A stretch of DNA of 64,000 nucleotides. Source: a virus. Of this stretch, positions 2,702 to 36,532 are shown piece by piece (the first letter of the stretch is position 1; every line of letters begins with the position of its first letter). The position numbers and the translations under genes are program-made. Location of the stretch: the IMG/VR virus record IMGVR_UViG_3300028287_000410, positions 43,763 through 107,762 of that record; one strand, 5' to 3'. The notes under the pieces were generated by a model that made no database searches, was not told where the DNA came from, and worked only from the letters and a program-made list of their open reading frames with translations.

Positions 2702-2703
2702 TA

Positions 2704-9935: not shown

Positions 9936-9963
9936 ATTAACTCCAATACTTTGATTATGTACG

Positions 9964-9971
9964 TATTTATC
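9964..9971 (-). promoter_or_regulatory. late-promoter-like octamer GATAAATA
   Basis: On the minus strand GATAAATA, one base off the T4 late consensus TATAAATA, lies 29 bases before the ATG at 9935. The same spacing recurs at three other genes here. It overlaps the 3' end of the upstream radical SAM gene, so it could be an internal late promoter in the operon. Confidence 0.45.
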
Positions 9972-12071: not shown

Positions 12072-13266
12072 TGTAATCCTCTTTTATAAAATCCCATATT
12101 TCTGGGACGTAATCCTTAATATGTTGATTTCGAACTTTATCGATAATCTTTGTATGTCTTGCTAAATGAATTGGATCTAATTCGTCTTCGTCTTCATATA
12201 TTTTTTCTAATACAGGCAACACTTTATTTTTAATTTGTGTCCTAGATAAGTCTTCGTGAATATCCATATTCTCTATTAGTTTAATCATAACAGGTATACG
12301 CTTTTTTCGTATAATCTTTGGTATAGATTTACAACTTAATGCTTCTGGATACATCAGTAATTCAGGGCGAATATACACTCCTTTATTATTACTCCATACT
12401 ATAGAATCAATAAGATTGAAAAAGTTGTATGCTTGTATAGTATAGCTTATTTCACCGTACAAAGCAAGGTTGTTATAAGTTATTATATTCTTATTTATTG
12501 ATTTAAATTTTACTGGATGCCTGATGTATTCAACCACCTTATCAATGCCATCGACACTGTAATTAAATGTTATTTGATTGAACTTAGAAATCTTTTCTAT
12601 AAATCTGTTGTTATCATTTGTTAAGTTTGTAGTAAAGTGTATCGGAACATCAAGCATATCACGTTCAATGAGAATGTCAAGAAACTTATCTACTTCTGGC
12701 ATAATAGTTGGTTCACCACCAAGAAACTTAACTCGCTTGCCCTTCTCTGCATTCTCTAATAAGAACTCTATATTCTCTTGTATATCTAATGTGTTTGTAA
12801 CATCGATATTACCAGCGCCCATAATAGATTCCATTATAGCGTTATTCTTTATCTCTTTTTGTAATTGAGAACTACACGCAGGTCCGCACATTCTACATGC
12901 TAGATTACATAAATTACCCGGACGTATATCTAAATCGATAGGAGAACCATACTGATTGCCATTACCTATATTAGGTAAGATATTTTCATCCTGATATAAA
13001 TCGGCAAATCTAGTTCTATCACTTTTTCCGCCACTATCTTCAAGTGAGAAACATTTCACACAAATATCTGGACGTTTGTTATCTAAGAATTCAGTTCTTA
13101 TATTTCTTAGATGCTCATTTGTCCATCTAGTTTTCAAATTAGTTTCAGTATCTGGTGTTGCCACTGAGTGTTCTGTTGTCATACAACATACACGTTCACC
13201 CTCATTGCTATGTACATACATATGTACAAAGGGAGCATAACAGAAATTATTAGGCAACTCAGACAA
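12055..13266 (-). CDS. twitch-domain radical SAM protein, TTG start
   Basis: A 403-residue twitch radical SAM protein. The N-terminal cysteines are C9 (FCYAPF), C27-C28 and C69xxC72. The radical SAM set is C120, C124, C127 (CNLACRMC), with LGGEPTI downstream. The initiation codon appears to be TTG at 13266: it follows directly after the stop of the preceding gene and is preceded by GGGAGA at good distance, and the FCxxPF motif sits at the family's usual distance from this point. A TTG start may lower its expression compared with its neighbours. The C-terminal end (HIKDYVPEIWDFI) matches the DxxPE/FxxVFPE-like tails of the other twitch proteins. Function beyond the enzyme class is unknown. Confidence 0.85.
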   Translation of the reverse strand: MSELPNNFCYAPFVHMYVHSNEGERVCCMTTEHSVATPDTETNLKTRWTNEHLRNIRTEFLDNKRPDICVKCFSLEDSGGKSDRTRFADLYQDENILPNIGNGNQYGSPIDLDIRPGNLCNLACRMCGPACSSQLQKEIKNNAIMESIMGAGNIDVTNTLDIQENIEFLLENAEKGKRVKFLGGEPTIMPEVDKFLDILIERDMLDVPIHFTTNLTNDNNRFIEKISKFNQITFNYSVDGIDKVVEYIRHPVKFKSINKNIITYNNLALYGEISYTIQAYNFFNLIDSIVWSNNKGVYIRPELLMYPEALSCKSIPKIIRKKRIPVMIKLIENMDIHEDLSRTQIKNKVLPVLEKIYEDEDELDPIHLARHTKIIDKVRNQHIKDYVPEIWDFIKEDYNDIRI

Positions 13267-14676: not shown

Positions 14677-15608
14677 TATCTGTATCCTATCTTTAAGTAG
14701 TATTGTTTTTCACCGTATGTGATAACACCTGTATATAATTCAAAACTCATAGGGAATTGTTTATTGAAGTTTTGTGAACTTGCAAAAGGTTTCGGCACAT
14801 CACCTGTTTCACCAACTAACACAAGTCTACGCATGTCTGGAATCATCTTGTACCAATCTTTATAGTTCTTCAAGTAACTAATATTAGTATTGATTAATGT
14901 TCCGGGTATCTCTACGAATGGATCGCTTAAATCGCCGTTCTGCAATTGTGTGATAAATGTATGCTCATCATATCCGATATTGAATAAGTCCAGTGTTGTT
15001 GCTTTGAAGCGCCAATCTGCTAGTAATTCTTTACTCATCATCTCATCTGCCAGAAATTGACAAACGCCATTAATATCAAATGAACGAATATTTTCAAATC
15101 GTAATCTAGTATCGAATAACATCGCTGGAAGGATCCCCATACCACCACCAAGAACATATATTGCACCAAGATACATTTCACCGAACGCATGTTGCATCTG
15201 TTGTGTAATCCAACTGTACACTTTTGCATTCTCTTTATTAACGAAAGATGAAATATCAACGTTTGGGTATGAGTAAATGATTTCTTTTAGTCTGTCTGTT
15301 AGCTTATCATCAATTGGCGGAGTAATATGAGTCAAGAAGTCCATTGCTTGTCGATAGTTACCCAGTTGCTGTGCCACGTTCTCTTTTGAGTATGTTACTG
15401 CCATATCTTGATAATCATAATCAAGTTTTGCTAACGGCTTTTCACGTCTACGACTAACACGCTTGTAATTGATTGTTTCAGTAATCTCTGGTTCTTCTTC
15501 CAGTTCTTCTTGTTCAATCAAATCTGCTACGCCAACTTCATCATACAATTCATCATTCTTTTTGATGTTTGCCGCTCTGCGATTTCTACGATCACGTATA
15601 TTACTCAT
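14676..15608 (-). CDS. methyltransferase-like protein
   Basis: A 310-residue protein with a very charged N-terminus (residues 1-60, many Arg, Lys and Glu) and a C-terminal Rossmann-like domain. The glycine-rich loop is AIYVLGGGMGILPAMLFD and the acidic position is RSFDING. Both align by eye with the C-terminal domain of the neighbouring 469-residue protein, including a TLINTNISYLKNYKDWY block matching its VINTSCEHIENFDEWF. The open frame starts with TTG at 15623, but I chose the ATG at 15608: GAGGAA precedes it and it overlaps the stop of the upstream gene (ATGAGTAA). A class I methyltransferase fold is likely. The substrate is unknown. Confidence 0.57.
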   Translation of the reverse strand: MSNIRDRRNRRAANIKKNDELYDEVGVADLIEQEELEEEPEITETINYKRVSRRREKPLAKLDYDYQDMAVTYSKENVAQQLGNYRQAMDFLTHITPPIDDKLTDRLKEIIYSYPNVDISSFVNKENAKVYSWITQQMQHAFGEMYLGAIYVLGGGMGILPAMLFDTRLRFENIRSFDINGVCQFLADEMMSKELLADWRFKATTLDLFNIGYDEHTFITQLQNGDLSDPFVEIPGTLINTNISYLKNYKDWYKMIPDMRRLVLVGETGDVPKPFASSQNFNKQFPMSFELYTGVITYGEKQYYLKIGYR

Positions 15609-18600
15609 TGTTTTGTTCCTCAAATTTTTCTGCTAGCCATTCAAAATCATTAATCTTACCTAGCATTTCATCATTATCTGCATGTTTAGTCCCCCAAGCA
15701 CGTCCAGCATTAGCTCCTGCAATTGCGTATGTTCCGAACTCTCTATCAACTCCTTTAGTACACCATGCTTCTAAGCGTTCATCATCTTCATCTTGCTTAT
15801 TACGATGAATGATACTAGATGCAAGTTTAGTACACTCACGGAAAGCAGACTTCCAAGTATTGAATGGGTCTGTATTGAATGCTGTATAGTTAGCTGGTGT
15901 TGGCATTGGCTTGAACTTCTCAGAGATAGACGTTGTAAAGTCAATACGCCAATCTTTTGCATCACGCAATAACTGTGTTGGGAATAGTTTCAGACCACCA
16001 TAACCATAAATCAAATCATTCACTGGGTTCTTAGACTTCCAAGTATGCACCGTGTCTTCATCCCATACACTTGGGAAGTATTCAAAGTTAAACTCTTCTA
16101 GCAACAATGCATCAGCGTCAATTACATAAAACATGCGAGTGTCAGCTAAGTTTGCGGCTGCTTGGTGAGCATTAAAAATACCTTTAACTCCGTGTACACG
16201 CTTTGCATGTGGTACACGCTCTAATAGTTTAGCATAATGTTCGTCTGCAAGTTTCTCTTGGTAACTCAACATGATAACATCATACGGAATATCTCTTGTT
16301 GCTGCTTTGGCTTTCTTAACTGGTTTCTTATTCTTAAAGTTCATCTTGCGTAACTTATCTGCGTCTGGCTTTAATTCTTTAATAGCACTTGCTGGAATAA
16401 GTTTTAGACCACCGAACTGGTGAATGTATCCTGTATAAGGACTTTCTTTAGGCCATAGATGAAAGTGTGATTTATGGTGACGATCAACATAAAACGTTCT
16501 ATCAAAGTCATCAATCATTTCTACGTCATTGTCTAATGCCCAGAAATAACCAGTCTTTGTCATCTTTGCAGCTTTCTGATATGCTGCTGCTAAATCAGAT
16601 GCATCGATAACATCAATGTTCTTATGTTCTGTGAACTTTGCAGTGTTCTCTGAATACATACCTTCATCAAAATAGAATGCAGGATGCCCAGTAACACGTG
16701 ATGCTACTTGATCTACACGAATGATATTCTTAAATCTATCGAATGAGAAATCATCTTCACTTGGATTGAATTGCTCAAGATGCGGTCTGTGTACAAGATA
16801 TACACCTGCATCTGCTTCGCCTTCACTCTTAAACGCAAATACGTTTTCAATACTATGGATGTCTGGATAGTAGTCAAAATCAAATTCATCTACTAGTTCT
16901 ACAACTGTATCTACAACCCAATAGAATACATGCTTCTTAGCTTGCGTATACGCTTTATATGGGTCACGTGTGTAATACTTTTTGATATTGTGCTTATCTG
17001 GGATACGTGCTACAACTTCATCATGATAGATAACATTCTCTGGATGATAGTCTACGTTAGATAGAGCAAGTCCGCCATGTCCCAACTCTACTCCCTTGCG
17101 AGATGTAAACTTCCAAATATGAGTAGGGCCAGTGTCATACAAGTCTGGATAGAAATCATCAATCGTAGTATCTGTTAATTGTAAGTCCGGGTTAACCATC
17201 CAGAATATGTTAGATGTTGCAAGCGTAACTGCTTCTTCAACTGTACGTGCTTCAATGCGTTCTGGCGAAGTTAGTTTACCGACAACTTGGTCAACATCTT
17301 TTTGTTTGTCTAAGTCTGCATTATACGGCACTAGACGTACACCATTGCGCACTGTCTTACCGCTTGATAATTCTACATCAAAATTATGAATGTATGTTCT
17401 ATCATATAGTGGAGGAATATAGTCTGTTATAGCATCTGATACGTCAGTGTGTACCATCCAAACCATTTCAGTATCACAATTCTTAATGGTGTTCAAATCT
17501 AACAAATCATTTACTATAGCTACATCATAGCGTTCTGGTTTAATTGCGGTTGTCTCTTGATACAATGCTTTGCGTCTGAAGTCGAACCTTTGATATTTTC
17601 GTTCTTCAAACAAATCATAATCTTTTCTAAATAGACCTACCCCATGATATTCTAGTGCATTATCCTCCCAGTCAGTTTTTTGCCACACAACAATCTGTTG
17701 GCGACCTTCTTCTGTCATAGAGAATTCAAACTCGTAATCAAAGTTAAAATCAGTTACCGTTGTATCACTTGTAATTACATAATAGTAGCTGTATGCTGAA
17801 TTCGCTTGTGCATACTCATGTAATTCAACCATTGTATCTACTGATACTTCTTGTATGCGCGAAAATCTTGATCTTAATTCTATAAGATTTTGCTGTCCAA
17901 AGCCACGATCCCAGAAAAAGATATCGTAATCGGGGACTTTTGCTGCTACTATATCGTGGAACTTTAGATTGTATTTGTCATACTCACTAGCAACAAATAC
18001 AACACCTTTTTCAAATATATGTGCGCTTGCTAAATCATACAAGTCAGGATAGAAGTCAAAGTTCTCTACCAATTGGACTGCTAGATCAACAATAACAAAA
18101 GGGTAAGTTTTTAAATTATTCAGTCCGCTCTTCAAGGTACTTGCTTGTACAATCAGTGTTTCTTTTAGTTTGCCGATAACGTCTTGTACATCTTTTTGCT
18201 TATCTGTGTCTGCATGTTTAGGAACAAGACGAATACCATTACGTACTGTCTTGCCATTTGCTGTCTTTACTTGAAAATTATGAATGAACTCACGATCATA
18301 CGAGAACGGATAAAACTCTGTTATGAAATCTTCAACATCTTCGTGTATCAACCAATACATATCTGCATCAACTGAGTGATTTAGATTATGCATATCAGTA
18401 GTACGAATTACAGGGAACTCTAAGTCACGTGCAACGGGATCTTTTTCGTATACTGCTTTGCGCCTAAAGTTAAAGATAGCATACTCACGCTCTTTAAACA
18501 TTGGACCATCTTTAGGAAATAGCCCCACACCATGATACTCTCTGACTAATTCTGTCTTTGGATTTTCTTTCTGCCAGACTACAACTTTTTGATTTTCTTT

Positions 18601-19260
18601 ATCAAGTCCAAATGCAAATGAATAGTCAAAGTCAAATGTATCAAAAATCTCTGTATTTGGATGCACTAGATAATAAAAATCAGTACGTGCTTCTTTACGA
18701 CACAATTCATGCACATCGATATTAGTATCTCCGCGAACTAAGTTTATACCTGGAAAACGTTCTTTTAATTTTTCAAAGTTTGCTTTTCCATAATCTTTCT
18801 CCCAATAAAAGATATCATACGTTTCTGTAGTCGGCTTGTATTCTACTTTATCAGTAGTATGCTCTTTAAAGTCGCCAGTCAAGTAATATGCATCTTGGAT
18901 ATACTGAACTTCTTTATTCTTTACGTCACTTGTTTTGAATAGCTTGACACCAACAACTGAACGAAAGACATTGCGCTCATCTGCATTCCAAACATGTACT
19001 ACATCCTCGTCCCAGCTATCGGTTTGAAAATCGAAATCGAAATCTTCATCGACATATACATCTGGATCAATAATCCAGAAGTGTTTTGTGTTTGTAATAG
19101 AGGCAATTTTACTAATTGCTTTATCAATCTTTGGATCACTCCAATCCTCTAGATTGATTTTAACCATGCGAAAGTTAGGATATTTTTCACGTATCCTATC
19201 TAAACGTTCATTAGTTTCTCTATCTGATTTGTAAGTTAGATAAAAACCGTCGTATGCCAT
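15601..19260 (-). CDS. giant multi-repeat glycosyltransferase-like protein
   Basis: A 1219-residue protein made of about six to seven divergent copies of one module. A module runs YDIFYW...RFP...V...(H/D)xxD...FDFDYYPD...VW...YGGLKLF, with an acidic DxD-like site in some copies (IDPD near residue 65, IDAD and LDND later). The last module, from about residue 990, is the fullest and matches the separate 325-residue protein at 45162-46139, sharing a WCxxGxDxExGxxAxxGA block. Degenerate copies such as VHPN or ITSD have probably lost metal binding and may only bind substrate. GT-A glycosyltransferase fold is inferred from the strand-DxD pattern. It is first in the leftward operon, with its own sigma70-like promoter and AGGG before the ATG. 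Confidence 0.6.
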   Translation of the reverse strand: MAYDGFYLTYKSDRETNERLDRIREKYPNFRMVKINLEDWSDPKIDKAISKIASITNTKHFWIIDPDVYVDEDFDFDFQTDSWDEDVVHVWNADERNVFRSVVGVKLFKTSDVKNKEVQYIQDAYYLTGDFKEHTTDKVEYKPTTETYDIFYWEKDYGKANFEKLKERFPGINLVRGDTNIDVHELCRKEARTDFYYLVHPNTEIFDTFDFDYSFAFGLDKENQKVVVWQKENPKTELVREYHGVGLFPKDGPMFKEREYAIFNFRRKAVYEKDPVARDLEFPVIRTTDMHNLNHSVDADMYWLIHEDVEDFITEFYPFSYDREFIHNFQVKTANGKTVRNGIRLVPKHADTDKQKDVQDVIGKLKETLIVQASTLKSGLNNLKTYPFVIVDLAVQLVENFDFYPDLYDLASAHIFEKGVVFVASEYDKYNLKFHDIVAAKVPDYDIFFWDRGFGQQNLIELRSRFSRIQEVSVDTMVELHEYAQANSAYSYYYVITSDTTVTDFNFDYEFEFSMTEEGRQQIVVWQKTDWEDNALEYHGVGLFRKDYDLFEERKYQRFDFRRKALYQETTAIKPERYDVAIVNDLLDLNTIKNCDTEMVWMVHTDVSDAITDYIPPLYDRTYIHNFDVELSSGKTVRNGVRLVPYNADLDKQKDVDQVVGKLTSPERIEARTVEEAVTLATSNIFWMVNPDLQLTDTTIDDFYPDLYDTGPTHIWKFTSRKGVELGHGGLALSNVDYHPENVIYHDEVVARIPDKHNIKKYYTRDPYKAYTQAKKHVFYWVVDTVVELVDEFDFDYYPDIHSIENVFAFKSEGEADAGVYLVHRPHLEQFNPSEDDFSFDRFKNIIRVDQVASRVTGHPAFYFDEGMYSENTAKFTEHKNIDVIDASDLAAAYQKAAKMTKTGYFWALDNDVEMIDDFDRTFYVDRHHKSHFHLWPKESPYTGYIHQFGGLKLIPASAIKELKPDADKLRKMNFKNKKPVKKAKAATRDIPYDVIMLSYQEKLADEHYAKLLERVPHAKRVHGVKGIFNAHQAAANLADTRMFYVIDADALLLEEFNFEYFPSVWDEDTVHTWKSKNPVNDLIYGYGGLKLFPTQLLRDAKDWRIDFTTSISEKFKPMPTPANYTAFNTDPFNTWKSAFRECTKLASSIIHRNKQDEDDERLEAWCTKGVDREFGTYAIAGANAGRAWGTKHADNDEMLGKINDFEWLAEKFEEQNNE

Positions 19261-19287
19261 ACTTACCCTATAGTTGCAATTTCTTAC

Positions 19288-19316
19288 ATTATAACAGATT
19301 AATCGTCCGTTGTAAA
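19288..19316 (-). promoter_or_regulatory. sigma70-like promoter for the left cargo operon
   Basis: On the minus strand TTTACA (19311-19316) is separated by 17 bases from TATAAT (19288-19293). It overlaps the last codons of the carbamoyltransferase gene and lies 28 bases before the ATG at 19260. It would start a transcript running leftward through the glycosyltransferase-like, radical SAM and oxygenase genes. Confidence 0.6.
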
Positions 19317-20831
19317 GACTTTAATTCCATAATGCTTCGAAAAATCTTCTGCATCTTTAATGTCATTGACAATAGGTTGACCTTTAATGTTCAACGATGT
19401 ATTTACTAAGATTGGACAACCAGTCTTTTCTTTGAACTTAGTTAGCAGTTCGTATAACCCCGGATGTGTTTCTTTGTTTACTGTCTGTACACGTGACGTA
19501 CCGTCTTTGTGTATGATAGCAGGAAACTGTTCTGGATACTTGCACTTGGCAACAAACTGCATGTAAGGACTTGCAGTGATATTCTCTGGCATATCAAAGT
19601 AATCATGTACGTCTTCTTCTAGTATCATAGGAGCAAACGGTCTGAACTTCTGTCTACGTTTGATTTCATTCATTCTGTCTTTGATAGTGTCGCCACGAGG
19701 ATCAGCAGTTAAAGTACGATTGCCTAATGCTCTTGGTCCAAACTCCGCACGTCCATTAGCAATGCCAATGATATCTCCGTTTAGCAATGCTTCTAATGAT
19801 TTCTCTACTGGATACGTACCTTCAATGTTATGACCTAGATATGCAGTCTCCCAGTTAATACGTTCTTTAAAGAACATCTGTGATGCACCAATACAACTAC
19901 CAGCATCACCAGGGTTTGGCATGATCCATACATTATCATAGTTGTGAGTGATGTTGCTGTTAGCACTACAATTAAGTGCGCAACCGCCCATAATAACCAA
20001 GTTCTTACTATCTACTTTTTCTTTAGCATCCTCAATAATAGCAGCAAGCATTTGCTCATATACGTATTGTGTAGCTGCCGCTAAGTCAAACATATCTTGC
20101 TCAGTAGTTAGTTCTGACAAGAACCATTTACAACCACGGTGTAAGTTCTTTTGAAAATTCACTAAGATATAATATTCTAAATTACTATTGTTTAAAATGA
20201 TTTTAAATTCATCGTATATATGTGCGATTAATGACTTGCCATTAACACGTCTGTGTAAGTCGCCATAGGCTGCCATACCCATAAGGATATATTCGTCCTC
20301 TTGTGGCTTTAGACCTAGACGTTGTGTCATTGCACTATAGAATAATCCAACTGAGTTTGGGTAACCTTGACTATATTTTTGTGTTAAATTGTCGCCTTTA
20401 CCTTCCCATATTGTTAATGTCTCATATTCGCCCATACTGTCAATAACAACAACTGCCGCATCATCAAATCCACTAGTAAAGTATCCACTTGCGGCATGCG
20501 TGTAGTGATGCTTTTGATATTTAATTTTGATGCCATCTAATTCTGGAAACTTCTTTAGATAGTTTACTGGCAATTCATCTAAATCAAATGCAAGTGTATA
20601 CTGACCAGCAGTAAATTGTCTAAACTTCTTTAGAATAGGCTTTTCATACCAAGCAATAACATCTGGCTTACCATACGACAAAGCCTCCTGAATAATTTCT
20701 TCATTCAGTAGTGGATCATTTTTAATCTTAGAATAGCGTTCACTATGACTGGCGAAAAGAATTTCACCATCTTTAATAACGCTAACTGCCGCGTCATGAT
20801 TCAGCGCGCCAGATATACCCAGTACAATCAT
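19299..20831 (-). CDS. carbamoyltransferase, NodU/CmcH family
   Basis: A 510-residue O-carbamoyltransferase. These enzymes use carbamoyl phosphate and ATP to carbamoylate a hydroxyl, typically on a sugar (Nod factor, antibiotic or surface glycan). Visible family features are the N-terminal ILGISGALNHDAAVSVI strand, the metal-binding histidines H108, H109 and H112 in HHYTHAASGYF, the VIDSMGE segment, GGCALNCSANSNI, the EFGPRALGNRTLTADPR block and the C-terminal PILVNTSLNIKGQPIV. Length is close to the family norm. Homologs occur in marine T4-like phages. It follows the 37-residue gene at 20839-20952 by seven bases. A role in capping a glycan made by the neighbouring glycosyltransferase-like genes is inference. 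Confidence 0.93.
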   Translation of the reverse strand: MIVLGISGALNHDAAVSVIKDGEILFASHSERYSKIKNDPLLNEEIIQEALSYGKPDVIAWYEKPILKKFRQFTAGQYTLAFDLDELPVNYLKKFPELDGIKIKYQKHHYTHAASGYFTSGFDDAAVVVIDSMGEYETLTIWEGKGDNLTQKYSQGYPNSVGLFYSAMTQRLGLKPQEDEYILMGMAAYGDLHRRVNGKSLIAHIYDEFKIILNNSNLEYYILVNFQKNLHRGCKWFLSELTTEQDMFDLAAATQYVYEQMLAAIIEDAKEKVDSKNLVIMGGCALNCSANSNITHNYDNVWIMPNPGDAGSCIGASQMFFKERINWETAYLGHNIEGTYPVEKSLEALLNGDIIGIANGRAEFGPRALGNRTLTADPRGDTIKDRMNEIKRRQKFRPFAPMILEEDVHDYFDMPENITASPYMQFVAKCKYPEQFPAIIHKDGTSRVQTVNKETHPGLYELLTKFKEKTGCPILVNTSLNIKGQPIVNDIKDAEDFSKHYGIKVFTTDD

Positions 20832-20838
20832 TTAATTC

Positions 20839-20952
20839 TCACTTATATATAAACGGATCACGTTTACGTAATTCTTCTAAACGCTTTTTCAGTTCTTTGC
20901 GTCTTTTATACTCTGACCAAGGCCAAGTAATAACTTCCCAAATCTTTCTCAT
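20839..20952 (-). CDS. 37-residue basic protein coupled to the carbamoyltransferase
   Basis: A short gene encoding 37 residues: a tryptophan-rich amphipathic start (MRKIWEVITWPWSEYK), a highly charged helix and the ending RDPFIYK. Evidence that it is real: GGAGAAGG stands just before the ATG, the ATG overlaps the stop of the preceding SGNH gene (TAATG), and the carbamoyltransferase starts seven bases after it. Small proteins of this kind, I recall, accompany carbamoyltransferase genes in some phages and bacteria. The amphipathic N-terminus might dock to a membrane or to a partner enzyme. No function is known to me. Confidence 0.7.
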   Translation of the reverse strand: MRKIWEVITWPWSEYKRRKELKKRLEELRKRDPFIYK

Positions 20953-21683
20953 TATCCTTCTCCGTTTCTTGTTTTTTCAATGTCTTCAAATAGAATTGTA
21001 GACCAGTCTTCGTGTGCATCCTCATCTGGATGCATATAACGCTCATCACCTTCTTGTTTAAAATACATTTGGTTCTCATGCATATATGTAAAGAAAGTCT
21101 GTTGTTCATAGATATGTGACATATCTAACTGTGTAAGAACATTACCCATATCAGCTTGTTCACATAATTCAGTAAACTTAGTTGCCTCTAATAGATTGGG
21201 AGTCAAGTTCAATGAATTAAAAATAATATACTCTAAACCAGCATTCTTAAAGAAATTCTGTAGTGTAAGAATATGAATTAAGTACTGATGGAAATCATAT
21301 ACTGGTGACCAGAAATGTTTCATGTACAGTGTGTTAAACAAATCGATATCTCTGTTTGTTTGTTCGTCCAGCATAATATTACCGTGATACTCATGTGCAG
21401 GTACATTATGAATTAATGTATTTGTTGCTTCGATAAAGTGTTCACGTCTACTTGGTGCAGTCATACCAATTGCGCAAAACGGCTTCTTACCTTCTGTTAG
21501 TAAGTCGCTTACTGTTGTAATAGTATTACGCACAATGTATTGATTGCTAACTCCGCGTTGTGCCTCTGAGATCGTATCACTACGTTCAAAGCCTAGCTTC
21601 TCTGCTAGTTCAAAAGGCCATGCTTTATCTTTTAGTGCAAGTCCAGTCCCGTATGTAAAGCTACATCCATTTGCATATAACAT
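20952..21683 (-). CDS. SGNH-hydrolase-like protein (DUF6071-like)
   Basis: A 243-residue protein starting MLYANGCSFTYGTG, the block-I motif of the phage SGNH-like group, in which a GCS replaces the GDS of classical GDSL esterases and S8 would be the nucleophile. GVSNQYIVRNT fits block II, with Gly and Asn. The C-terminal YMHPDEDAHEDW provides a DxxH-type acid-histidine pair. SGNH enzymes often remove or add acetyl groups on glycans. The open frame is compact and the next gene overlaps its stop. It lies between an oxygenase-like gene and the carbamoyltransferase pair, in line with a tailoring role. Catalysis is unproven. Confidence 0.65.
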   Translation of the reverse strand: MLYANGCSFTYGTGLALKDKAWPFELAEKLGFERSDTISEAQRGVSNQYIVRNTITTVSDLLTEGKKPFCAIGMTAPSRREHFIEATNTLIHNVPAHEYHGNIMLDEQTNRDIDLFNTLYMKHFWSPVYDFHQYLIHILTLQNFFKNAGLEYIIFNSLNLTPNLLEATKFTELCEQADMGNVLTQLDMSHIYEQQTFFTYMHENQMYFKQEGDERYMHPDEDAHEDWSTILFEDIEKTRNGEG

Positions 21684-21703
21684 ATTATTATTCCTCTAAT
21701 TTA

Positions 21704-22309
21704 CTACTTCTCATTATACTCGAAACAACCCAACAATGCAAGTCTTTGTTTTGTACCGATGTTTTCTACTTTGTGTTCCCAATTACTATTAAGATACCAG
21801 ACTTCGCCAGGTTGCATTAATTGCTTGACCACTCCGTTCTTTGTCTTCATATGCATAATTTGTTCACCATCGATAACTACAGAAAATCTGTCTTTACCGG
21901 GTTGGTCAATATGATATGTTAAATCGTCATCCTTTTGAATTGTTGCATATCGTAATCTACATATTGCAGAATTTAACATATACGCAAGTTCTTCATATAC
22001 TGGATTAAATTCCTCCCGTAATTGAATATAATTACTTTCAGTATTCTCATCGCTTGGCAACTTGTACTGAATATCATACTGGTTATAATTAACAACATCC
22101 CTGTCATCAACAGTGTTGACTTCTATAGGAAGTTGTGTTAATCTTAGTTGTTTTGCAGTATCCAGTGACGGTGGTGTGTTTTTGAACTCTTTTCGTAATA
22201 GCTCAAGTGCTGATTCAGTTACGTTTCCATAATATCTAAATAATGGATATTTCAATCTCTTTTTCACTATCATTTTTTGACTGCTATAATTTTGTATAAT
22301 ATTATTCAT
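21704..22309 (-). CDS. small HxD...H oxygenase-like protein
   Basis: A 201-residue protein with a beta-rich C-terminal half carrying H133 and D135 (LTYHIDQPG), H179 (NWEHKVEN) and R189 (KQRLAL), the ligand pattern of 2-oxoglutarate/Fe(II) oxygenases of the aspartyl beta-hydroxylase type. The MQPGEVWYLNSNWEH stretch is the usual strand before the second histidine. It is the first gene of the leftward unit that ends with the carbamoyltransferase. GAGG precedes the ATG, and a late-promoter-like octamer lies 30 bases upstream. It is smaller than the other two HxD proteins here and not obviously derived from them. Substrate unknown. Confidence 0.68.
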   Translation of the reverse strand: MNNIIQNYSSQKMIVKKRLKYPLFRYYGNVTESALELLRKEFKNTPPSLDTAKQLRLTQLPIEVNTVDDRDVVNYNQYDIQYKLPSDENTESNYIQLREEFNPVYEELAYMLNSAICRLRYATIQKDDDLTYHIDQPGKDRFSVVIDGEQIMHMKTKNGVVKQLMQPGEVWYLNSNWEHKVENIGTKQRLALLGCFEYNEK

Positions 22310-22338
22310 ATGTTCCTCATTAACTGCTAAGATAAATA

Positions 22339-22346: not shown

Positions 22347-22420
22347 CAATAAAAAATTATTACAAACAGTTTCCCAAAGAGGAAATATGTTTATTATGGC
22401 AGATCATTGAAATATTTTAA

Positions 22421-22428
22421 GATAAATA
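22421..22428 (+). promoter_or_regulatory. late-promoter-like octamer GATAAATA
   Basis: GATAAATA on the plus strand lies 48 bases before the GTG start at 22476. A second GATAAATA occurs at 22331-22338. Either could start the transcript of the radical SAM/ACP cassette. No TTGACA-like -35 box is seen. Confidence 0.42.
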
Positions 22429-22475: not shown

Positions 22476-23396
22476 GTGAACACAAAAATATTAAACTATT
22501 ATGAAGTTCTTCCTGAGGAAAATACATTTGTTGACATTATGGCAGACATAACTCATAAATGCAACATGACATGTAAGAACTGTTATATACCTAACCGCGA
22601 TGTCCCAGACATGGATTTAGAAAAATTTAAAGATTTCATGTCACGGATTGCCGGTAGATGTATGATTAGAATTGTTGGAGCAGAACCAACAATGAATCCG
22701 CTGTGTGAAGAGTACATTAAAGCAGTTTTTGAGAATGGCCATAGATGTATTCTTCTGACAAACGGTTTAAGGTTATCACATAAAAATTACGTAAGTAAAT
22801 TACACAATGCTGGACTAAGACATATATACCTAAGTCTTAACGGAGTTGATAATGATGATTGGTACGAGTCTATAGATGAAATGCGATGTGCTGATAAAAA
22901 AATAAAAGCATTACAAAATATCCGTGAGCGTAAATTTATATTAGATACGGGAACTATCATTGTTCCGAATGTGAATGAAGATGCGCCCGGTGCGTTATTA
23001 GAATTGTTTGACAGAGAAAATATTAATAATGCTCTCATGCGAATTAAGAATGTTGGTCAATTAGGTAGATTTCAAACAGAAGCCGACGATAATGTAAAAA
23101 TGGATCAACTAGTTAAACTATGTTCAGAACAAATGAACATCAGCGAAGACTATATAAATAGTTTTAGAAATAAAAAATTATATGGTATATATGAAGAAAA
23201 GAACTCTATACTATTTCCGTTACGTGAGGGTAACAAAATATTAAACAGAGGCAGATGGGTTAAGATTACAAATTGGGATACAGACAACGAAATCGGTATA
23301 CCAGATCCTAACTCGCCAAGGCGTGGGCGCATTACAAAAGATTTTATGCTTGCACCAACATACGAACACATTAAATTAAACGAAGGTGGATACTAA
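22476..23396 (+). CDS. radical SAM protein of the ACP cassette
   Basis: A 306-residue radical SAM enzyme and the only one of fifteen on the plus strand. The cluster cysteines are C29, C33, C36 (KCNMTCKNCY). The SAM-contact motif reads VGAEPTMNP in place of GGEP. There is no N-terminal twitch region and no cysteine-rich tail, so it probably holds a single cluster. The start is GTG at 22476 with AGGA eight bases ahead. It is followed two bases later by an acyl carrier protein gene, then two hydrolase genes, so a substrate bound to the carrier is plausible. Family resemblance beyond the barrel is unclear to me. Enzyme class firm, reaction unknown. Confidence 0.85.
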   Translation: MNTKILNYYEVLPEENTFVDIMADITHKCNMTCKNCYIPNRDVPDMDLEKFKDFMSRIAGRCMIRIVGAEPTMNPLCEEYIKAVFENGHRCILLTNGLRLSHKNYVSKLHNAGLRHIYLSLNGVDNDDWYESIDEMRCADKKIKALQNIRERKFILDTGTIIVPNVNEDAPGALLELFDRENINNALMRIKNVGQLGRFQTEADDNVKMDQLVKLCSEQMNISEDYINSFRNKKLYGIYEEKNSILFPLREGNKILNRGRWVKITNWDTDNEIGIPDPNSPRRGRITKDFMLAPTYEHIKLNEGGY

Positions 23397-23398
23397 AA

Positions 23399-23635
23399 AT
23401 GAGTAAGACTAGAGAAACACTTAAAAAAATTGCTATGGACAGGGTCGATATCGAATTGACAGATGAAATTATTAATTCCGGTACTTCCTTTAAGGATCTA
23501 GGGATAGATTCTTTGGATTCTATTGAAATTATTGTTTCAATAGAGGATGAATTAGATATTGAATTATCAGATGAAACGCTAGACGCTGTAACTAATATCA
23601 AAGAATTAGCAGACTATTTGTCAGAATTTGACTGA
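23399..23635 (+). CDS. acyl carrier protein
   Basis: A 78-residue, strongly acidic four-helix carrier protein. S38 in GIDSLDSIEI is the serine that takes the 4'-phosphopantetheine arm (DSL motif), and the flanking LGIDSLDSIE sequence is typical of ACPs. The length is normal. AAGGTGG precedes the ATG, and the stop overlaps the next start as TGATG. No phosphopantetheinyl transferase is visible in the window, so it would rely on a host or distant phage enzyme. It may carry an acyl or aminoacyl group for the radical SAM enzyme upstream and the hydrolases downstream. The family call is secure. Its role in a phage is unusual. Confidence 0.92.
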   Translation: MSKTRETLKKIAMDRVDIELTDEIINSGTSFKDLGIDSLDSIEIIVSIEDELDIELSDETLDAVTNIKELADYLSEFD

Positions 23636-24636
23636 TGTTATTACCGTTAATTGACGGTATAGAAGTTGATTTAAATGATGATTTAGATTTATATTTTTTC
23701 CATGAATACGTACAATGGAAAAACTATAGCTTCAATCGTGTAGACAAAAAAGGCATACGAGAAAAAATTAATCTTTCAGCATTCCAAAAGGTATATATGC
23801 AAAGAGCAAATACCGGTGGATGGAATTTCGCAGAAGAAGACGTATATAAGTTTGATGAGGTGCGTTTTGAATTGCCGAATGAATGCAAGACAATATGTAT
23901 CAGCAAAAAAGACAATGATTACGAAACACTTATAATACAACTTGCAAGTTTAAGTGGGCATGGCAGTAGATTAACACAGCCGTTTAGCAGTACATCCGAA
24001 AGCATTTACAACACGAATGCAGATATTATTGTAGTGAACGAAGACCCTCTTCGCTTTCCAGAGTTTTTATACCCTTCGTGTTATATACTAGGGTGCAGTG
24101 AACGATTACACTCTATGAAATTAATGGCAGATGATGTTAGAAGAATTATCACCGAAAAGGGAAAGCAATATAAGAAAATTGTAGTATATAGTGACAGTAA
24201 ACATGCTGGGTCTGGATTGAGTTTTGCAATTGAACTAAGTGATATTGTTACTCATTGTTTTACAGTACACGGAACAAACACGCATGATTTTAATGAAAGC
24301 CCTATTGTCAAAGATTATCTAGAAAATTACAAGACAGGTTGGCATACAAGTCCTGCACAATGGATGCACATTGTAAAATGCTATCAATATAAAAATCGCT
24401 TCGAAATACCAGATCATATATTGAATCCATTAAAGCATATCAAAAATTATAATATAAAAGTTGATTACTACCATGGCAAGTACGATGATGAATATAGGCC
24501 ATTTTTGAAATACGCACAGGAATTAGATACAGGAATAAGTTATCATGAAGTTGACTATAGAACAAAATACGAAACTCATAATATTAGAAATCATATAGAT
24601 AGAAAAATTTTACCCGGATATATCAATGAAATTTGA
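23635..24636 (+). CDS. alpha/beta-hydrolase-like protein, copy 1
   Basis: A 333-residue protein paralogous to the next gene. It fits an alpha/beta-hydrolase: a nucleophile elbow-like VVYSDSKHAGSG with a serine between strand and helix (about residue 186), an acid loop in YYHGKYDDEYRPF, and a late histidine in THNIRNHI. A conserved VNEDPLRFPEFLYPS block lies between. Hydrolases of this fold include thioesterases and acyltransferases that act on carrier-bound acyl groups, which suits its position after the ACP. No clear Shine-Dalgarno is present and the start overlaps the ACP stop (TGATG), so it is probably translated by coupling. Fold call moderate. Thioesterase function is inference. Confidence 0.6.
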   Translation: MLLPLIDGIEVDLNDDLDLYFFHEYVQWKNYSFNRVDKKGIREKINLSAFQKVYMQRANTGGWNFAEEDVYKFDEVRFELPNECKTICISKKDNDYETLIIQLASLSGHGSRLTQPFSSTSESIYNTNADIIVVNEDPLRFPEFLYPSCYILGCSERLHSMKLMADDVRRIITEKGKQYKKIVVYSDSKHAGSGLSFAIELSDIVTHCFTVHGTNTHDFNESPIVKDYLENYKTGWHTSPAQWMHIVKCYQYKNRFEIPDHILNPLKHIKNYNIKVDYYHGKYDDEYRPFLKYAQELDTGISYHEVDYRTKYETHNIRNHIDRKILPGYINEI

Positions 24637-25648
24637 ATTTTACAATCAATTATGGGACTTTGACGATGATGTAGAGCTATACTTTCTACATGAAAAAATA
24701 CTCCAATACACATATTCCACCATCAAAAATGACAGTAATAAGAAAATTGATAGGTTCTCACGAATATATAAGACTGATTTTATTAATGTATTAGAACAAC
24801 GTGCAGAAACAGGCACTATAGAGTTTGCTAGACCATTGGTACAAAGCTACAACGATGAGTTATTTGAGAATGTATCAGATGATTATACAATGTGTTGGAA
24901 GCGAACTAACATAGAACACGACACATTGATTATTCATTTGACAAGTTTTGCAGGACACGAAGGTCGATTGTCTTCCCCTCTCACAAATGTAAGTGAAAAG
25001 ATTATTAATTTAGACACAGATTTATTGATTGTAAATGAAGATCCATTCAGAATGCCAGAAATTCTATACCCAAGTAATATGGTACTTGGTGTAAGTAATA
25101 AATGTGATAGCATAAAATCAACATGTAACCAGATTAGAAAATATATTAATAAAGAATACAAACATGTTATTCTCTACGCAGATAGTAAACATGCTGGATC
25201 TGTTGTTAGCATCGCATCAGAATTGCAAGATTTAAATATTCGTGTGTTGACAACAGGTGGACAATCTACATATAACTGGGAAACATCTCCATGGGTTAAA
25301 GGTTATCTGAAATGGTTTAATAGACCCGAATATCTAAAACATCAATATATGCCTATCACAGGAGTTGTACTTATGCATATTGTAAAGTGTTATAAATTCA
25401 AACAAATGAATATAGACAAGCGTATAACAGACCCATACAAGTTCTTAAATGATTATGATATACCGGTTGATTTCTTATATGGGAAATACGACATAGATTA
25501 TGTAGGATTTAAAAACTATGTAGAAAGATTGAAAATAAACAACTTGACCATGCACGAAATTGATTACAAGATTTCTAGTTCGCAAACACATAACATTCGA
25601 CCATATGTTGATAGGTTTGTACTAAAAGATTACATAGAAAACTTATAA
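24626..25648 (+). CDS. alpha/beta-hydrolase-like protein, copy 2
   Basis: A 340-residue paralog of the preceding protein. Shared elements in the same order are VNEDPFRMPEILYPS, the nucleophile region ILYADSKHAGSV, LMHIVKCYKFK, the acid loop FLYGKYDIDYVGF and THNIRPYVDRF. All three putative catalytic positions are kept in both copies, so neither looks like a dead duplicate. Its ATG lies 11 bases inside the preceding gene. It ends in a six-base overlap with the convergent SGNH gene, with no terminator between them. Two retained copies suggest two substrates or a heterodimer. It ends the plus-strand cassette. Confidence 0.6.
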   Translation: MKFEFYNQLWDFDDDVELYFLHEKILQYTYSTIKNDSNKKIDRFSRIYKTDFINVLEQRAETGTIEFARPLVQSYNDELFENVSDDYTMCWKRTNIEHDTLIIHLTSFAGHEGRLSSPLTNVSEKIINLDTDLLIVNEDPFRMPEILYPSNMVLGVSNKCDSIKSTCNQIRKYINKEYKHVILYADSKHAGSVVSIASELQDLNIRVLTTGGQSTYNWETSPWVKGYLKWFNRPEYLKHQYMPITGVVLMHIVKCYKFKQMNIDKRITDPYKFLNDYDIPVDFLYGKYDIDYVGFKNYVERLKINNLTMHEIDYKISSSQTHNIRPYVDRFVLKDYIENL

Positions 25649-27464: not shown

Positions 27465-27908
27465 ATGACTAAAGATGAACTTCAAGTAATCCTAGAAAAA
27501 CATAAGCTATGGCTCCAGGGTAATAAAGAAGGAGTTCGTGCTGACTTGCGCGGTGCTGACTTGTGTGGCGCTGACTTGAGTGGTGCTAACTTGATTGCTG
27601 CTAACTTGAGTGGTGCTAACTTGAGTGGTGCTATCTTGAGGGGTGCTATCTTAGAGGTTGCTAACTTGAGTGGTGCTACCTCGAGGGGTGCTGACTTGAG
27701 GAATGCTAACTTAGGGGGTGCTAACTTAGAGTATGCTGACTTGCGTGATGCTAACTTGAGTGGTGCTGGCTTAGAGAATGCTAACTTAGAGGAGGCTGAC
27801 TTGTGGTGTGCTAACTTGAGTGGTGCTGACTTGTCTGATGCTAACTTGAGTGGTGCTGACTTGAGGAATGCTAACTTAGAGGGTGCTAACTTTGGAGAAA
27901 CAGAATGA
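27465..27908 (+). CDS. pentapeptide-repeat protein
   Basis: A 147-residue protein. A 25-residue lead ([17 protein letters not shown]) is followed by some 22 tandem five-residue units of the A(D/N)LSG/A(D/N)LRN type up to the C-terminus. Such repeats fold as a right-handed square beta-helix. Some family members mimic DNA and inhibit gyrase, many have no known role. AAGGA precedes the ATG. The underlying DNA is a 15-base repeat (gctaacttgagtggt-like), which makes copy number prone to change. It forms a coupled row with three downstream genes and lies behind a host-type promoter. Confidence 0.88.
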
Positions 27909-33321: not shown

Positions 33322-34186
33322 TAGAAAGCTCCAACATTGTTGGAATTATTTCTTTATTAATACAGTGAACATGATACGCATTATTAATATCAAAAACGGT
33401 ATCTGTAACTAATTGATTCCACGACGGCTTTAGCTCTGCTACAAAGTCACCATTTGATTTTATTCGCATTTGCAACCATTGAAAAAACACTTCATCTGAT
33501 GGATGAAATAAAAGGTGTTCTTGGTCGCTACTACTAACCTCTTTATAAGGCAATGTCATCGCATGAGTGTTTTGCGGTTCTGTTATGAAGTACTGCTGTT
33601 TGTGCTTATGAATTTCTATACAAAAATTTACGTAATCATTTACCATAGTTTCAGTTATTGTTTTTTTATTTAATATTAATAGTCCAGAATTATAACGATA
33701 TCGCAGTGTTTTGATATCTTCGAATGTCATCCCAGTGTACATGCAATAGTAGTACAAGAATGATGTGTCATACAAGTATGGTTTTTGTCTACAACTAACA
33801 GTGAGAACATGATTTTTATAACATTGTTGATCCAATACGCAATTATCAACATCATCTAATTTTTTGTACTCCATAAATACACTATCAAAATCTGCAAATA
33901 CGAAATATGTCATTTCAGGATAATCTTCTATTGCTGATAGTATAGTATAAAGTTTTCCTATGCCAGGGAACACTCTCATAGCATTTATCGGTATATTGTA
34001 ATCAGAGAATGTTCTACCAGTTAAATTGTATCTATATGGAACTTCGTCTCCGTAAAGTCTGTACTTCATATCATTAAATTCAGCAAAGCGTTTATGGTTT
34101 TGTATAATGTCTTGCTTATAAGGCTTTATTAAGTCATAATGTACACCTTTATATAGTGTGCTGATTAGCATAGTATCAGTCGCCAT
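33314..34186 (-). CDS. glycosyltransferase-like protein (DxD)
   Basis: A 290-residue protein with the pattern of a GT-A glycosyltransferase. The metal and nucleotide-sugar-binding DxD is D99-F-D101 in YFVFADFDSVF, after a helix-rich segment containing GIGKLYTILSAIE, and RYRYNSGLLILNK follows, a stretch often seen in GT8/GT34-like enzymes where the acceptor side is formed. The C-terminal HCINKE may provide a further metal ligand. Sugar donor and acceptor cannot be told. It sits between a twitch radical SAM gene and an SGNH hydrolase gene, overlapping both. Confidence 0.68.
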   Translation of the reverse strand: MATDTMLISTLYKGVHYDLIKPYKQDIIQNHKRFAEFNDMKYRLYGDEVPYRYNLTGRTFSDYNIPINAMRVFPGIGKLYTILSAIEDYPEMTYFVFADFDSVFMEYKKLDDVDNCVLDQQCYKNHVLTVSCRQKPYLYDTSFLYYYCMYTGMTFEDIKTLRYRYNSGLLILNKKTITETMVNDYVNFCIEIHKHKQQYFITEPQNTHAMTLPYKEVSSSDQEHLLFHPSDEVFFQWLQMRIKSNGDFVAELKPSWNQLVTDTVFDINNAYHVHCINKEIIPTMLELSNV

Positions 34187-35342
34187 TTAAATATCCCTCT
34201 AGTCCTGAGAATACATCATTAAAGTTCTGTTCTCTAATCTTGTCGATTTGATTAATATCTTTGCGCACATTTAAGAAATCCATTTGAGTATTGTTCATAT
34301 AGTTTACAACACCATCGATAGTTTTTTCTTGTAGAATATCATTCCATTCTACAAGAAATTCATTTTCAATTCTATCAGTTATAATATTCTTAACTTCTTT
34401 CGGTAATGCTGCAATGCTTGTATTAGCATCATATACAATATTTAGCCAGACTGGGATTTGTTTCTCATAATAATATTCTAGGCTCTCAATAAGATTAAAG
34501 ATACTATATACACTCACTCCATAGCTGATGGTTGGAGTAATACCTGCGTTAACATATCTTTGTAACGTATCTTCATATACACTCCACTCTGCTGGATATC
34601 TAGAATATTCGAACCCTTCACGAACCCCATCTGCACTTAACATAATAGTGATATGTTTAAAGTGCGGCCAGATATTTTTAACTGCATGTTCTGGGAATAT
34701 AGTACCGTTCGTAGCGTAACTTACTGTAATATTCTTACTCAATCCACGTTCAATCAGTCTTTCTAAGAATTGAAATTGTTGCTTAATAAGCATTGGTTCA
34801 CCGCCAAAGATTTCAATTGCTTCAACATGTTCCATCATTGTATCTAGTTCTTCCCAGAACTTGTCATTATTATACCATTTGAAGTTTGCTAATTGCAAAT
34901 CAGAGAATACTTTATTTGTATTGAATAGTTTCTTCTTGTCATCAATCCATTTTGAACTACTAAATTCGTTGCATATACGGCATTTAAGATTACATGTATT
35001 TCCTGGCTTTATATCTATAATCTTTAAGTTGAATTCGCCACGCTTAATATTATCAATTTCCATAGCATAGCGTTCATTCTCTCGCATACGTCTACTAACG
35101 TTACCATTGGCTTCTTCGCTATAGCATTTCCGGCACCCGGAATTAGGTTTATCGGCAAGCATTTTATCTTGCATGTTTTTAATCCAAGTACTATTTCTAA
35201 TGTCATGTATACTATCAGTTCTAGCATTAAAATGCGAACCATCGTCTTTAAGATAGTGTCCATCGTATACACAACATGGTCTAATTTTACCATTGGTATC
35301 TACTTCAAAATGCACAAAAGGAAGAACACAGAACTTACTCAT
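34176..35342 (-). CDS. twitch-domain radical SAM protein
   Basis: A 388-residue protein, among the most compact of the twitch group. N-terminal cysteines are C5 (FCVLPF), C23-C24 and C70xxC73. The radical SAM set is C117, C121, C124 (CNLKCRIC), with FGGEPMLI. The C-terminal IREQNFNDVFSGLEGYL matches the (D/N)xRxxxFxDVFPE tail of its relatives. It is followed by a glycosyltransferase-like gene and preceded, stop to start, by the next twitch gene (TAATG overlap). It resembles most the proteins at 35342-36532 and 40924-42063, which share SSSKW after the cluster motif. Tandem copies suggest local duplication. Confidence 0.87.
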   Translation of the reverse strand: MSKFCVLPFVHFEVDTNGKIRPCCVYDGHYLKDDGSHFNARTDSIHDIRNSTWIKNMQDKMLADKPNSGCRKCYSEEANGNVSRRMRENERYAMEIDNIKRGEFNLKIIDIKPGNTCNLKCRICNEFSSSKWIDDKKKLFNTNKVFSDLQLANFKWYNNDKFWEELDTMMEHVEAIEIFGGEPMLIKQQFQFLERLIERGLSKNITVSYATNGTIFPEHAVKNIWPHFKHITIMLSADGVREGFEYSRYPAEWSVYEDTLQRYVNAGITPTISYGVSVYSIFNLIESLEYYYEKQIPVWLNIVYDANTSIAALPKEVKNIITDRIENEFLVEWNDILQEKTIDGVVNYMNNTQMDFLNVRKDINQIDKIREQNFNDVFSGLEGYLNGD

Positions 35343-36532
35343 TAGAATAGTCCTTTAAATTCGTCTAGATAATCAACGATAGTATGTTCTCTGATAGTGT
35401 CTAATTCTTTTGTGTACTCTATCGCACTTTCCCATTTTGCTTTATTGTCTGGACCACCGAACATATTCTTTAGTTCGTTCATTTTCCAGTCATCAAATAT
35501 ATTTGAAAACCTGTCGTGAATAGAATCGCGCATTGCTTTTGGCAACACCGCTGGTGACAGAATGTCTGGATCATACACATAGTTATGATGTACCCAAACA
35601 CCGTGTTCTCTGTGGAAGAAGTTGAAAAAGTCTCCCAACGTGCTGTAGTTCATCCACGATACAGTCTGTGTAACGTCTAGTTCAAAGTCCTCTTCTTTAA
35701 GACGTAAGAAGTTCTTCATTACAGTATCCCATTCTGTTGGGAATCGGATGTAGTGATTTCTATCACCTAGATCATCAATAGAACACGATACTTTTACATG
35801 ATCGAACTTGCGCCATAGAGCAATGATATCTTCATTCATGTTCGTCATGTTGATGTTATACCATAGTTTGATATCTGTTTTACCCATTTCAACTAAACGC
35901 TCTAAGAACTTAAAGTGTTGTTTGATTAATGTTGGTTCCCCACCATTGATATAGAATGTCTTTACATTATCACAATGCTGTAGTAAGTCTTCCCAGAACC
36001 CCTCACGTTCAGGCCAACGAAAGCCTTCCATCGTGTTGTAGTCTGTTAACTTAAACGTTGTTGCTTTCTGTAGCTGGTCATAATCATTACGCCATTTACT
36101 ACTAGACGCCGGGTTACATGTTCTACATTTTACATTACAAACATTGCCCAACCTTAGCTCAACAAACTCTAGTTGTACGTCTTTCATGTATCCAGTGTCG
36201 TCAGTGGCGTCCCTAGCGACTCCTACAGTGTACTCAGGATAGTTCTTTATTTCTTCTATGCGTTTACTGTGCATACCTTTAGCTTCTTCGCTATAGCAAC
36301 GCAGACACGCTTGTGGTTTCTTACCATCTAATACTTGAAGTCTCGCCTTACGAAATGTTTCACTATTCATAGTATCAAACACTGTATCACGATTTAGATT
36401 GTAATATCTATTTTCGCCATCTTTAGCACTACTACGTGCTTGACGATGATCCGCAATACAACAATGCGTCACTCCGCCATGTGGATGTGTCGCTAAGTGT
36501 TGAAATAGTAATGGGCAGAATGTATCACTCAT
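35342..36532 (-). CDS. twitch-domain radical SAM protein
   Basis: A 396-residue twitch radical SAM protein: C6 (TFCPLLF), C24-C25, C76xxC79, then C132, C136, C139 (CNVKCRTC) followed by NPASSSKW, and NGGEPTLI. A conserved SIDDLGDRNHYIRFP block corresponds to the S(I/V)DGxGDxxEYxR region of relatives, which may form part of the active site. The tail reads IREHTIVDYLDEF. The gene abuts a protein of unknown function upstream (four-base gap) and the next twitch gene downstream. Enzyme class firm, product unknown. Confidence 0.87.
   Translation of the reverse strand: MSDTFCPLLFQHLATHPHGGVTHCCIADHRQARSSAKDGENRYYNLNRDTVFDTMNSETFRKARLQVLDGKKPQACLRCYSEEAKGMHSKRIEEIKNYPEYTVGVARDATDDTGYMKDVQLEFVELRLGNVCNVKCRTCNPASSSKWRNDYDQLQKATTFKLTDYNTMEGFRWPEREGFWEDLLQHCDNVKTFYINGGEPTLIKQHFKFLERLVEMGKTDIKLWYNINMTNMNEDIIALWRKFDHVKVSCSIDDLGDRNHYIRFPTEWDTVMKNFLRLKEEDFELDVTQTVSWMNYSTLGDFFNFFHREHGVWVHHNYVYDPDILSPAVLPKAMRDSIHDRFSNIFDDWKMNELKNMFGGPDNKAKWESAIEYTKELDTIREHTIVDYLDEFKGLF

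Follow-up and report, generated by a model that had tools for sequence, protein, structure and literature searches.

A radical SAM, acyl carrier protein and hydrolase-fold gene cassette in uncultivated phages, possibly part of a virus-encoded acyl pathway

The stretch of DNA analyzed here (the window; 64,000 nucleotides, G000:C1:43763-107762) belongs to a 107,762-base virus record, IMGVR_UViG_3300028287_000410 (G000), and our subject is a cassette of four plus-strand genes at window positions 22476-25648 that encode a radical S-adenosylmethionine (SAM) enzyme, here called rSAM, an acyl carrier protein (ACP) and two proteins of predicted alpha/beta-hydrolase fold, H1 and H2. We give even chances to the reading that this cassette supplies the carrier, tailoring and release functions of an acyl pathway encoded by the phage and resembling type II fatty acid synthase (FAS) or polyketide synthase (PKS) systems. 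The reading draws on the carrier serine of the ACP, a related locus in which the phosphopantetheinyl transferase gene AcpS joins the run, a conserved ketosynthase (KS) operon, an overlap of KS and H genes in another phage and the co-occurrence of KS with ACP. It draws also on the fold of the H proteins with their kept Ser/Cys-Asp-His residues, the nearness of rSAM to the tetraether-lipid synthase Tes, a locus combining ACP, TauD and FA_desaturase genes, and purifying selection.

The four open reading frames (ORFs) encode rSAM (22476..23396, 306 aa, with a GTG start and an AGGA ribosome site), ACP (23399..23635, 78 aa), H1 (23635..24636, 333 aa) and H2 (24626..25648, 340 aa). A 2-nt gap separates rSAM from ACP, ACP and H1 overlap by 1 nt, and H1 and H2 by 11 nt. 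Minus-strand genes lie on either side: the upstream one lies at 21704-22309, and the downstream one (26632-25643) is convergent and overlaps H2 by 6 nt. Four tightly spaced genes running against the surrounding strand towards a convergent gene had been predicted from the window, and this arrangement is confirmed. The ratio dN/dS is 0.07-0.16 for rSAM, H1 and H2 when compared with the near relative G001, and 0.05-0.10 for rSAM, ACP and H between the related loci L013 and L018. On these grounds we take the four-gene cassette to be real and kept by purifying selection.

The carrier reading is well supported by the recurrence of the order rSAM-ACP-H across some five lineages of phages, once with AcpS in the run. 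The ACP matches PF00550 (PP-binding; E = 1.5e-13, 51.2 bits versus a cut-off of 20.8), and its DSL serine, Ser38 in GIDSLDS, is invariant among the ACP relatives aligned; its scores lie below the AcpP equivalog cut-offs (TIGR00517, 49.9 versus 70.45; NF002149, 52 versus 106). The strongest single argument that it is a working carrier comes from locus L022, where AcpS (PF01648, E = 6e-15) is followed after a 4-nt gap by rSAM, after a 9-nt gap by ACP and then, with an 8-nt overlap, by the H-type gene H'. A further AcpS is found in the 342-kb relative G011. This jumbo-size record (342,607 bases) holds three ACPs, one AcpS, a KS operon and an rSAM-ACP-H run; since its L014 region is common to the 160-kb record G012, it may be either a single genome or a chimera formed from two phages. 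Phages also carry a second ACP type, assigned by eye, which lies in a run with genes for an A-type Fe-S carrier (IscA-like) and HscB/J-domain-like proteins (L095, at G011:28000-42000, and L130-L133); this run, linked to iron-sulfur cluster (ISC) genes, is conserved in several phages.

The putative chain-making genes lie outside the window, about 28 kb upstream of the cassette, in an operon at G000:32573-38190 that encodes an AMP-binding ligase (Pfam E = 1.1e-41), a Trp_halogenase-family protein (6.3e-90), an FA_desaturase (5e-10), a 199-aa protein and a ketoacyl synthase (1.8e-27). The predicted KS (G000:37039-38190) is closest to FabF, with KS domains and a Cys-His-His set (C150, H280, H314) present in all copies. 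The product of the flavin-dependent halogenase-family gene (G000:33973-35670; PF04820, 302.6 bits versus a cut-off of 21) is nearest to Trp halogenases, VirX1 among them, and is at least 63% identical to its phage orthologs and about 28-30% identical to those of cyanophages and pelagiphages. The 199-aa protein has no Pfam match and looks GNAT-like by eye only, so we leave it unnamed. Fifteen other viral contigs carry this operon, usually flanked by the same AAA and VWA-like genes and often with two desaturases.

This operon is linked to H by synteny and to ACP by co-occurrence. Contig L125 has a KS gene that shares 4 nt with the gene for a 332-aa H-family protein, which is 32% identical to H2 and has the motifs CDSRHAGS, GMYD and THYIR, and in G031 an H-family gene lies near the KS operon; H thus goes with ACP in some phages and with KS in others. 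An ACP is present in 10 of the 11 KS contigs longer than 50 kb (G000-G004, G011, G035, G037, G039 and G043), and the eleventh, G031, ends inside an rSAM gene. The co-occurrence is supportive rather than decisive, since this count stands without a background rate and three KS contigs (G037, G043 and G036, the last shorter than 50 kb) have only the ISC-linked ACP type.

By motif and by profile, rSAM is a member of the radical SAM superfamily (PF04055, E = 1.5e-15, 58.2 bits versus a gathering score of 29.5), so that the original prediction of an ACP with an intact DSL serine beside a radical SAM enzyme holds on both sides. The cluster motif CX3CX2C (C29-X3-C33-X2-C36) is invariant across the family alignment; C138 is the sole further invariant cysteine, and auxiliary-cluster cysteines are absent. 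Other signatures of the family are GVDNDDWY, IDE(M/L)RC, RRGR and a C-terminal NE..Y. The best profile match in PDB is Tes/GDGT-MAS (7TOL, 1.2e-18), and a structure model of rSAM (pLDDT 81.5) superposes on Tes with a Z of 21.8 and a root-mean-square deviation of 3.4 over 286 of the 306 residues, as against 17.4 for MoaA and at most 14.8 for all others. As judged from the model, then, Tes stands clearly ahead of every other solved structure in closeness to rSAM. Tes, which acts on membrane lipids, is itself longer, at about 500 aa, and has additional domains and auxiliary Fe-S clusters, in contrast to the 306 aa of the phage enzyme, whose only invariant cysteines are C29, C33, C36 and C138. Three specific names were tried and rejected with NCBIfam models: Tes (NF045702, 53.3 bits versus a cut-off of 450, the extra-cluster cysteines being absent), MoaA (TIGR02666, 54.4 bits versus 284) and TrsS, whose cut-off was not reached. 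We take a lipid-chain-like substrate for rSAM as a lead, no more.

That rSAM instead works on a peptide, a nucleotide or a sugar, and came to stand next to ACP and H through gene traffic at a variable site, we consider very unlikely. Its fold also resembles MoaA, viperin and BlsE in structure comparison, its neighbors vary widely between phages (GNAT-like, glycosyltransferase-like and IMPDH-like), loci L094, L127 and L129 have ACP without rSAM, and several of the 18 radical SAM domains of the genome lie by SPASM matches, a peptide-maturase feature. However, several lineages keep rSAM within 2 nt of ACP or H, L022 has the run AcpS-rSAM-ACP-H', and auxiliary-cluster cysteines are missing from the enzyme. 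The 18 PF04055 matches in the G000 record, 15 of them above the curated cut-off, compare with up to 13 in relatives; examples of the array lie on the minus strand of the window at 1526-5353, 8373-13266, 34176-36532 and 38312-45161. An S-adenosylmethionine synthetase (PF00438) is encoded at G000:C1:21013-22101 and could feed many radical SAM enzymes; of the records checked for it, seven of nine with the KS operon have it, as against none of five without KS.

The two downstream genes had been described as hydrolases. H1 and H2 are paralogs (40% identity) with no match above noise in Pfam, PHROG or NCBIfam, and a sequence search of PDB with H1 found nothing. Nevertheless the hydrolase assignment survives in structure, since an AlphaFold model of H2 (14-sequence alignment; pLDDT 85, pTM 0.88) has alpha/beta hydrolases throughout its VIA-align and Foldseek matches, the former tied at Z 13-14.5. 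On this modeling H1 and H2 are of alpha/beta-hydrolase fold, with nucleophile, Asp and His in that order after the usual strands; the putative triads are Ser188-Asp284-His315 in H1 and Ser187-Asp289-His322 in H2. In H2 numbering, D186, D289 and H322 are among the residues invariant in eight H-family sequences, down to 16% identity, and position 187 is Ser in all of these except L022 and L028, where it is Cys. A Ser/Cys swap at this position, between a strand and the helix that follows, is as expected of a catalytic nucleophile. The elbow around it takes the form Asp-(Ser/Cys)-(Lys/Arg): S/A-D-S-K-H in the cassette, C-D-S-R-H in L125 and S-D-C-K in L022 and L028.

The tied structural matches of H2 include esterases, the curacin thioesterase 3qit, the capsule O-acetyltransferase 6yuo, Ag85C and Gap123/Asp2, and Foldseek also returns the myristoyl-ACP thioesterase 1tht; with esterases, thioesterases and acyltransferases equal in Z, the fold cannot tell a hydrolase from an acyltransferase. 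It is therefore no decisive argument for an alternative, raised in the original prediction, which we regard as unlikely, namely that an acyl or amino acyl group made on the carrier is attached by the cassette to a glycan or protein of the virion or host surface, with H1 and H2 as O- or N-acyltransferases and with neighboring carbamoyltransferase, SGNH-type and glycosyltransferase-like proteins decorating the same polymer. This alternative draws on the VIA-align scores of CsaC (the capsule O-acetyltransferase 6yuo; Z 13.7), of Asp2 of Gap123 (6oyc; 13.3) and of Ag85C (13.3), on the carbamoyltransferase and DUF6071/GDSL-like neighbors, and on putative glycosyltransferases with DxD motifs, read from sequence, after rSAM in L024-L041. 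These glycosyltransferase-type loci, however, have neither ACP nor H, and an acceptor was not identified.

The original prediction had left open whether the gene order was unique to this contig; it is not, for rSAM-ACP-H recurs in other phages, which excludes a contig-specific artefact. A scan of viral contigs with rSAM returned 49 loci at 48-98% identity. The full order rSAM-ACP-H1-H2 of G000 is shared by G001, nearly a twin of it; rSAM-ACP-H is found in L013-L016, L018 and L019 (57-66% identity), rSAM-H in L008-L012 and L017, rSAM-ACP in L005-L007, and rSAM-ACP followed by an opposite-strand 2-oxoglutarate (2OG) oxygenase gene and H' in L028 and L029, in addition to the L022 run. Several contigs are near-identical copies, so the lineages that have both ACP and H number about five rather than dozens. 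At L030 an ACP stands with TauD, FA_desaturase and class II aldolase genes at the rSAM locus, and H is absent. A natural series of presence and absence is formed by L061-L063, L065 and L069, which have a lone H gene where close relatives have desaturase-like, 2OG, rSAM and ACP genes.

Aside from generic rSAM similarity, the rSAM and H families turned up in none of 50,697 phage records, which excludes their being ordinary genes of isolated phages. The rSAM family is essentially absent also from a cellular scan (84,980 species, one genome each), the one match being a viral-looking contig, L073, of a metagenome-assembled genome (MAG). The family thus appears essentially confined to uncultivated phages, with that contig the one match outside. 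The cassette-bearing phages are presumably marine, as judged from relatives (the cyanophage and pelagiphage halogenases) rather than from sample records.

Some rSAM loci are of other composition. Those of L024-L041 have D201-rSAM and then putative glycosyltransferases, with ACP and H absent; in these and in L050 a conserved set (2OG-like, rSAM, a 136-aa protein, three putative glycosyltransferases and a 213-aa methyltransferase-like protein) lies beside tail-region genes. In L020, L021 and L073 a B12-type radical SAM gene, rSAM, a 2OG-type oxygenase, an IMPDH/GMP-reductase homolog and an AMP-binding protein, short at 236 aa and without the C-terminal domain, occur with no ACP and no H.

Several observations weigh against a single acyl pathway joining cassette and operon. 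The two lie about 28 kb apart in G000. At a threshold of 1e-30 rSAM is missing from four long KS contigs (G035, G037, G039 and G043), and a KS is not seen in most phages with rSAM, so the two can occur apart; with ACP moreover standing alone beside the 2OG gene in G011, G035 and G039, rSAM is dispensable. Since rSAM-H pairs occur without an adjacent ACP (L008, L009, L012 and L017) and H occurs by itself (L061-L063, L065 and L069), H may not need the cassette ACP. At the level of motifs, the H family has S/A-D-S-K-H where a GxSxG nucleophile elbow is looked for, and the halogenase-family protein has WNFII or WTFII in place of WxWxIP. Finally, no ketoreductase, dehydratase or malonyl loading gene was identified.

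The same genes could serve another end, with ACP, KS and desaturases as viral counterparts of host FAS parts that alter membrane lipids and with rSAM, H1 and H2 acting on host lipids. The likeness of the KS to FabF, the fatty-acid desaturases of the operon and of L030, and the established action of Tes, the closest rSAM structure, on membrane lipids all point that way. Against this, a FAD halogenase-family gene and an AMP-ligase are conserved in the operon and would be unexpected for plain membrane remodeling, and we consider such a redirection of host lipids quite unlikely.

The carrier-based acyl pathway that we prefer would proceed in five steps. First, ACP would be converted to its holo form by a phosphopantetheinyl transferase, either the host's or, in relatives, a phage AcpS such as that observed in L022. 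Second, the phage AMP-ligase would load an acyl group, or this would be taken from acyl-ACP of the host. Third, the FabF-type KS, the desaturase or desaturases and the FAD halogenase-family enzyme of the conserved operon would extend or modify the chain, with ACP carrying it for the KS. Fourth, the Tes-like rSAM may, as optional tailoring, abstract a hydrogen from the ACP-bound chain at an unactivated C-H. Fifth, judging from fold and putative triad, the Ser of H1 or H2 would take the acyl group from the carrier for release (as a thioesterase) or for transfer to an acceptor (as an acyltransferase). Such a pathway is larger than the cassette; the notion of a minimal, self-contained module is therefore unsupported, given an AMP-ligase/halogenase/desaturase/KS operon about 28 kb upstream and H genes that occur without rSAM or ACP.

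Cassette expression is probably late in infection. Two copies of the late-promoter-like element AAGATAAATA precede rSAM on the plus strand, a distal one at 22329..22338 (containing GATAAATA at 22331, 145 nt before the rSAM start) and one at 22419..22428 (GATAAATA at 22421, 55 nt before the start). The window has three AAGATAAATA in total, these two included, where 0.64 are expected. GATAAATA by itself shows no window-wide enrichment, and we dropped the promoter octamer as an argument of that kind. The late-promoter-like octamers that had been predicted are borne out by comparison: a T4-late-promoter-like [G/T]ATAAATA octamer lies 13-145 nt 5' of the rSAM start in 12 of 12 rSAM-first loci inspected. 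In L005, L022 and L028 it lies only 13-14 nt 5' of the start codon, so that a late mRNA would be nearly leaderless.

The divergent neighbor of rSAM (21704..22309, minus strand) encodes a putative Fe(II)/2OG oxygenase, cupin- or Asp-Arg-hydroxylase-like and under the Pfam cut-offs, a relative of which adjoins the rSAM gene in most loci. It belongs to a minus-strand series (15601-22309) with a carbamoyltransferase of NodU/NolO type, a 1219-aa protein and an SGNH-like DUF6071 protein, an arrangement that L005-L007 and L051 also keep next to their rSAM-ACP genes. DNA hypermodification was considered in view of the carbamoyltransferase and of QueE/QueC-like genes nearby; no tie to ACP or H was seen. 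Pentapeptide-repeat-like ORFs with A(D/N)LxxA repeats lie at 27465-27908 of the window and at G000:17643-19051.

Metabolic genes in phages are usually taken for host enzymes that the virus has borrowed and that boost the metabolism of its host. In this case the virus appears to hold its own carrier, chain-making and tailoring enzymes, the operon and the cassette are conserved across several phage lineages, and one 108-kb record encodes 18 radical SAM domains in addition to a SAM synthetase. It is possible, though we hold it with less than even confidence, that jumbo-like marine phages make their own carrier-bound acyl or polyketide-like compound, perhaps halogenated and desaturated, by means of a viral KS, ligase and ACP, with tailoring by a phage-only rSAM, release or transfer by the new H family, and late expression. 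If so, this would be viral natural-product chemistry, would offer a testable candidate for a radical SAM enzyme that acts on acyl chains bound to ACP and would bring up two protein families lacking known function.

The original prediction held that no such phage system had been described. For the combination this stands, as no paper describing it was found in the literature searched (most subscription journals being outside its scope); it does not stand for the parts. At E up to 1e-3, 62 phage records have an ACP match, and an ACP with an ACP synthase is published for the Prochlorococcus phages P-HM1 and P-HM2 (PMC3037559). These phages and the jumbo phage GAP32 share with G000 a phage-encoded ACP, but the annotations within 5-7 kb of the ACP of P-HM2 and GAP32 show no gene for an rSAM, a KS or an H-type protein. 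The cyanophage flavin halogenase VirX1 is likewise published (PMC8407142); G000 has a gene of the same Trp_halogenase family, which in contrast shares an operon with the AMP-ligase, desaturase and KS genes and has not kept the WxWxIP motif. Natural-product-type genes on phages recall the phage-borne biosynthetic gene clusters of Dragos et al. (2021), which the account in PMC10452541 presents as interbacterial weapons; as far as that account goes, the present set differs in being carrier-protein based and in belonging to uncultivated jumbo-like phages. There is also a likeness in kind to type II FAS/PKS systems (AcpP, FabF, AMP-ligase and type II thioesterase), to which correspond the phage ACP, the AcpS of relatives, a KS with Cys/His/His, the AMP-ligase and an alpha/beta-hydrolase-fold protein. 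Unlike these, the phage set yielded none of the reductive, dehydrating and loading genes named above, adds rSAM, a halogenase-family protein and a desaturase, is divided between two places and is carried by a phage.

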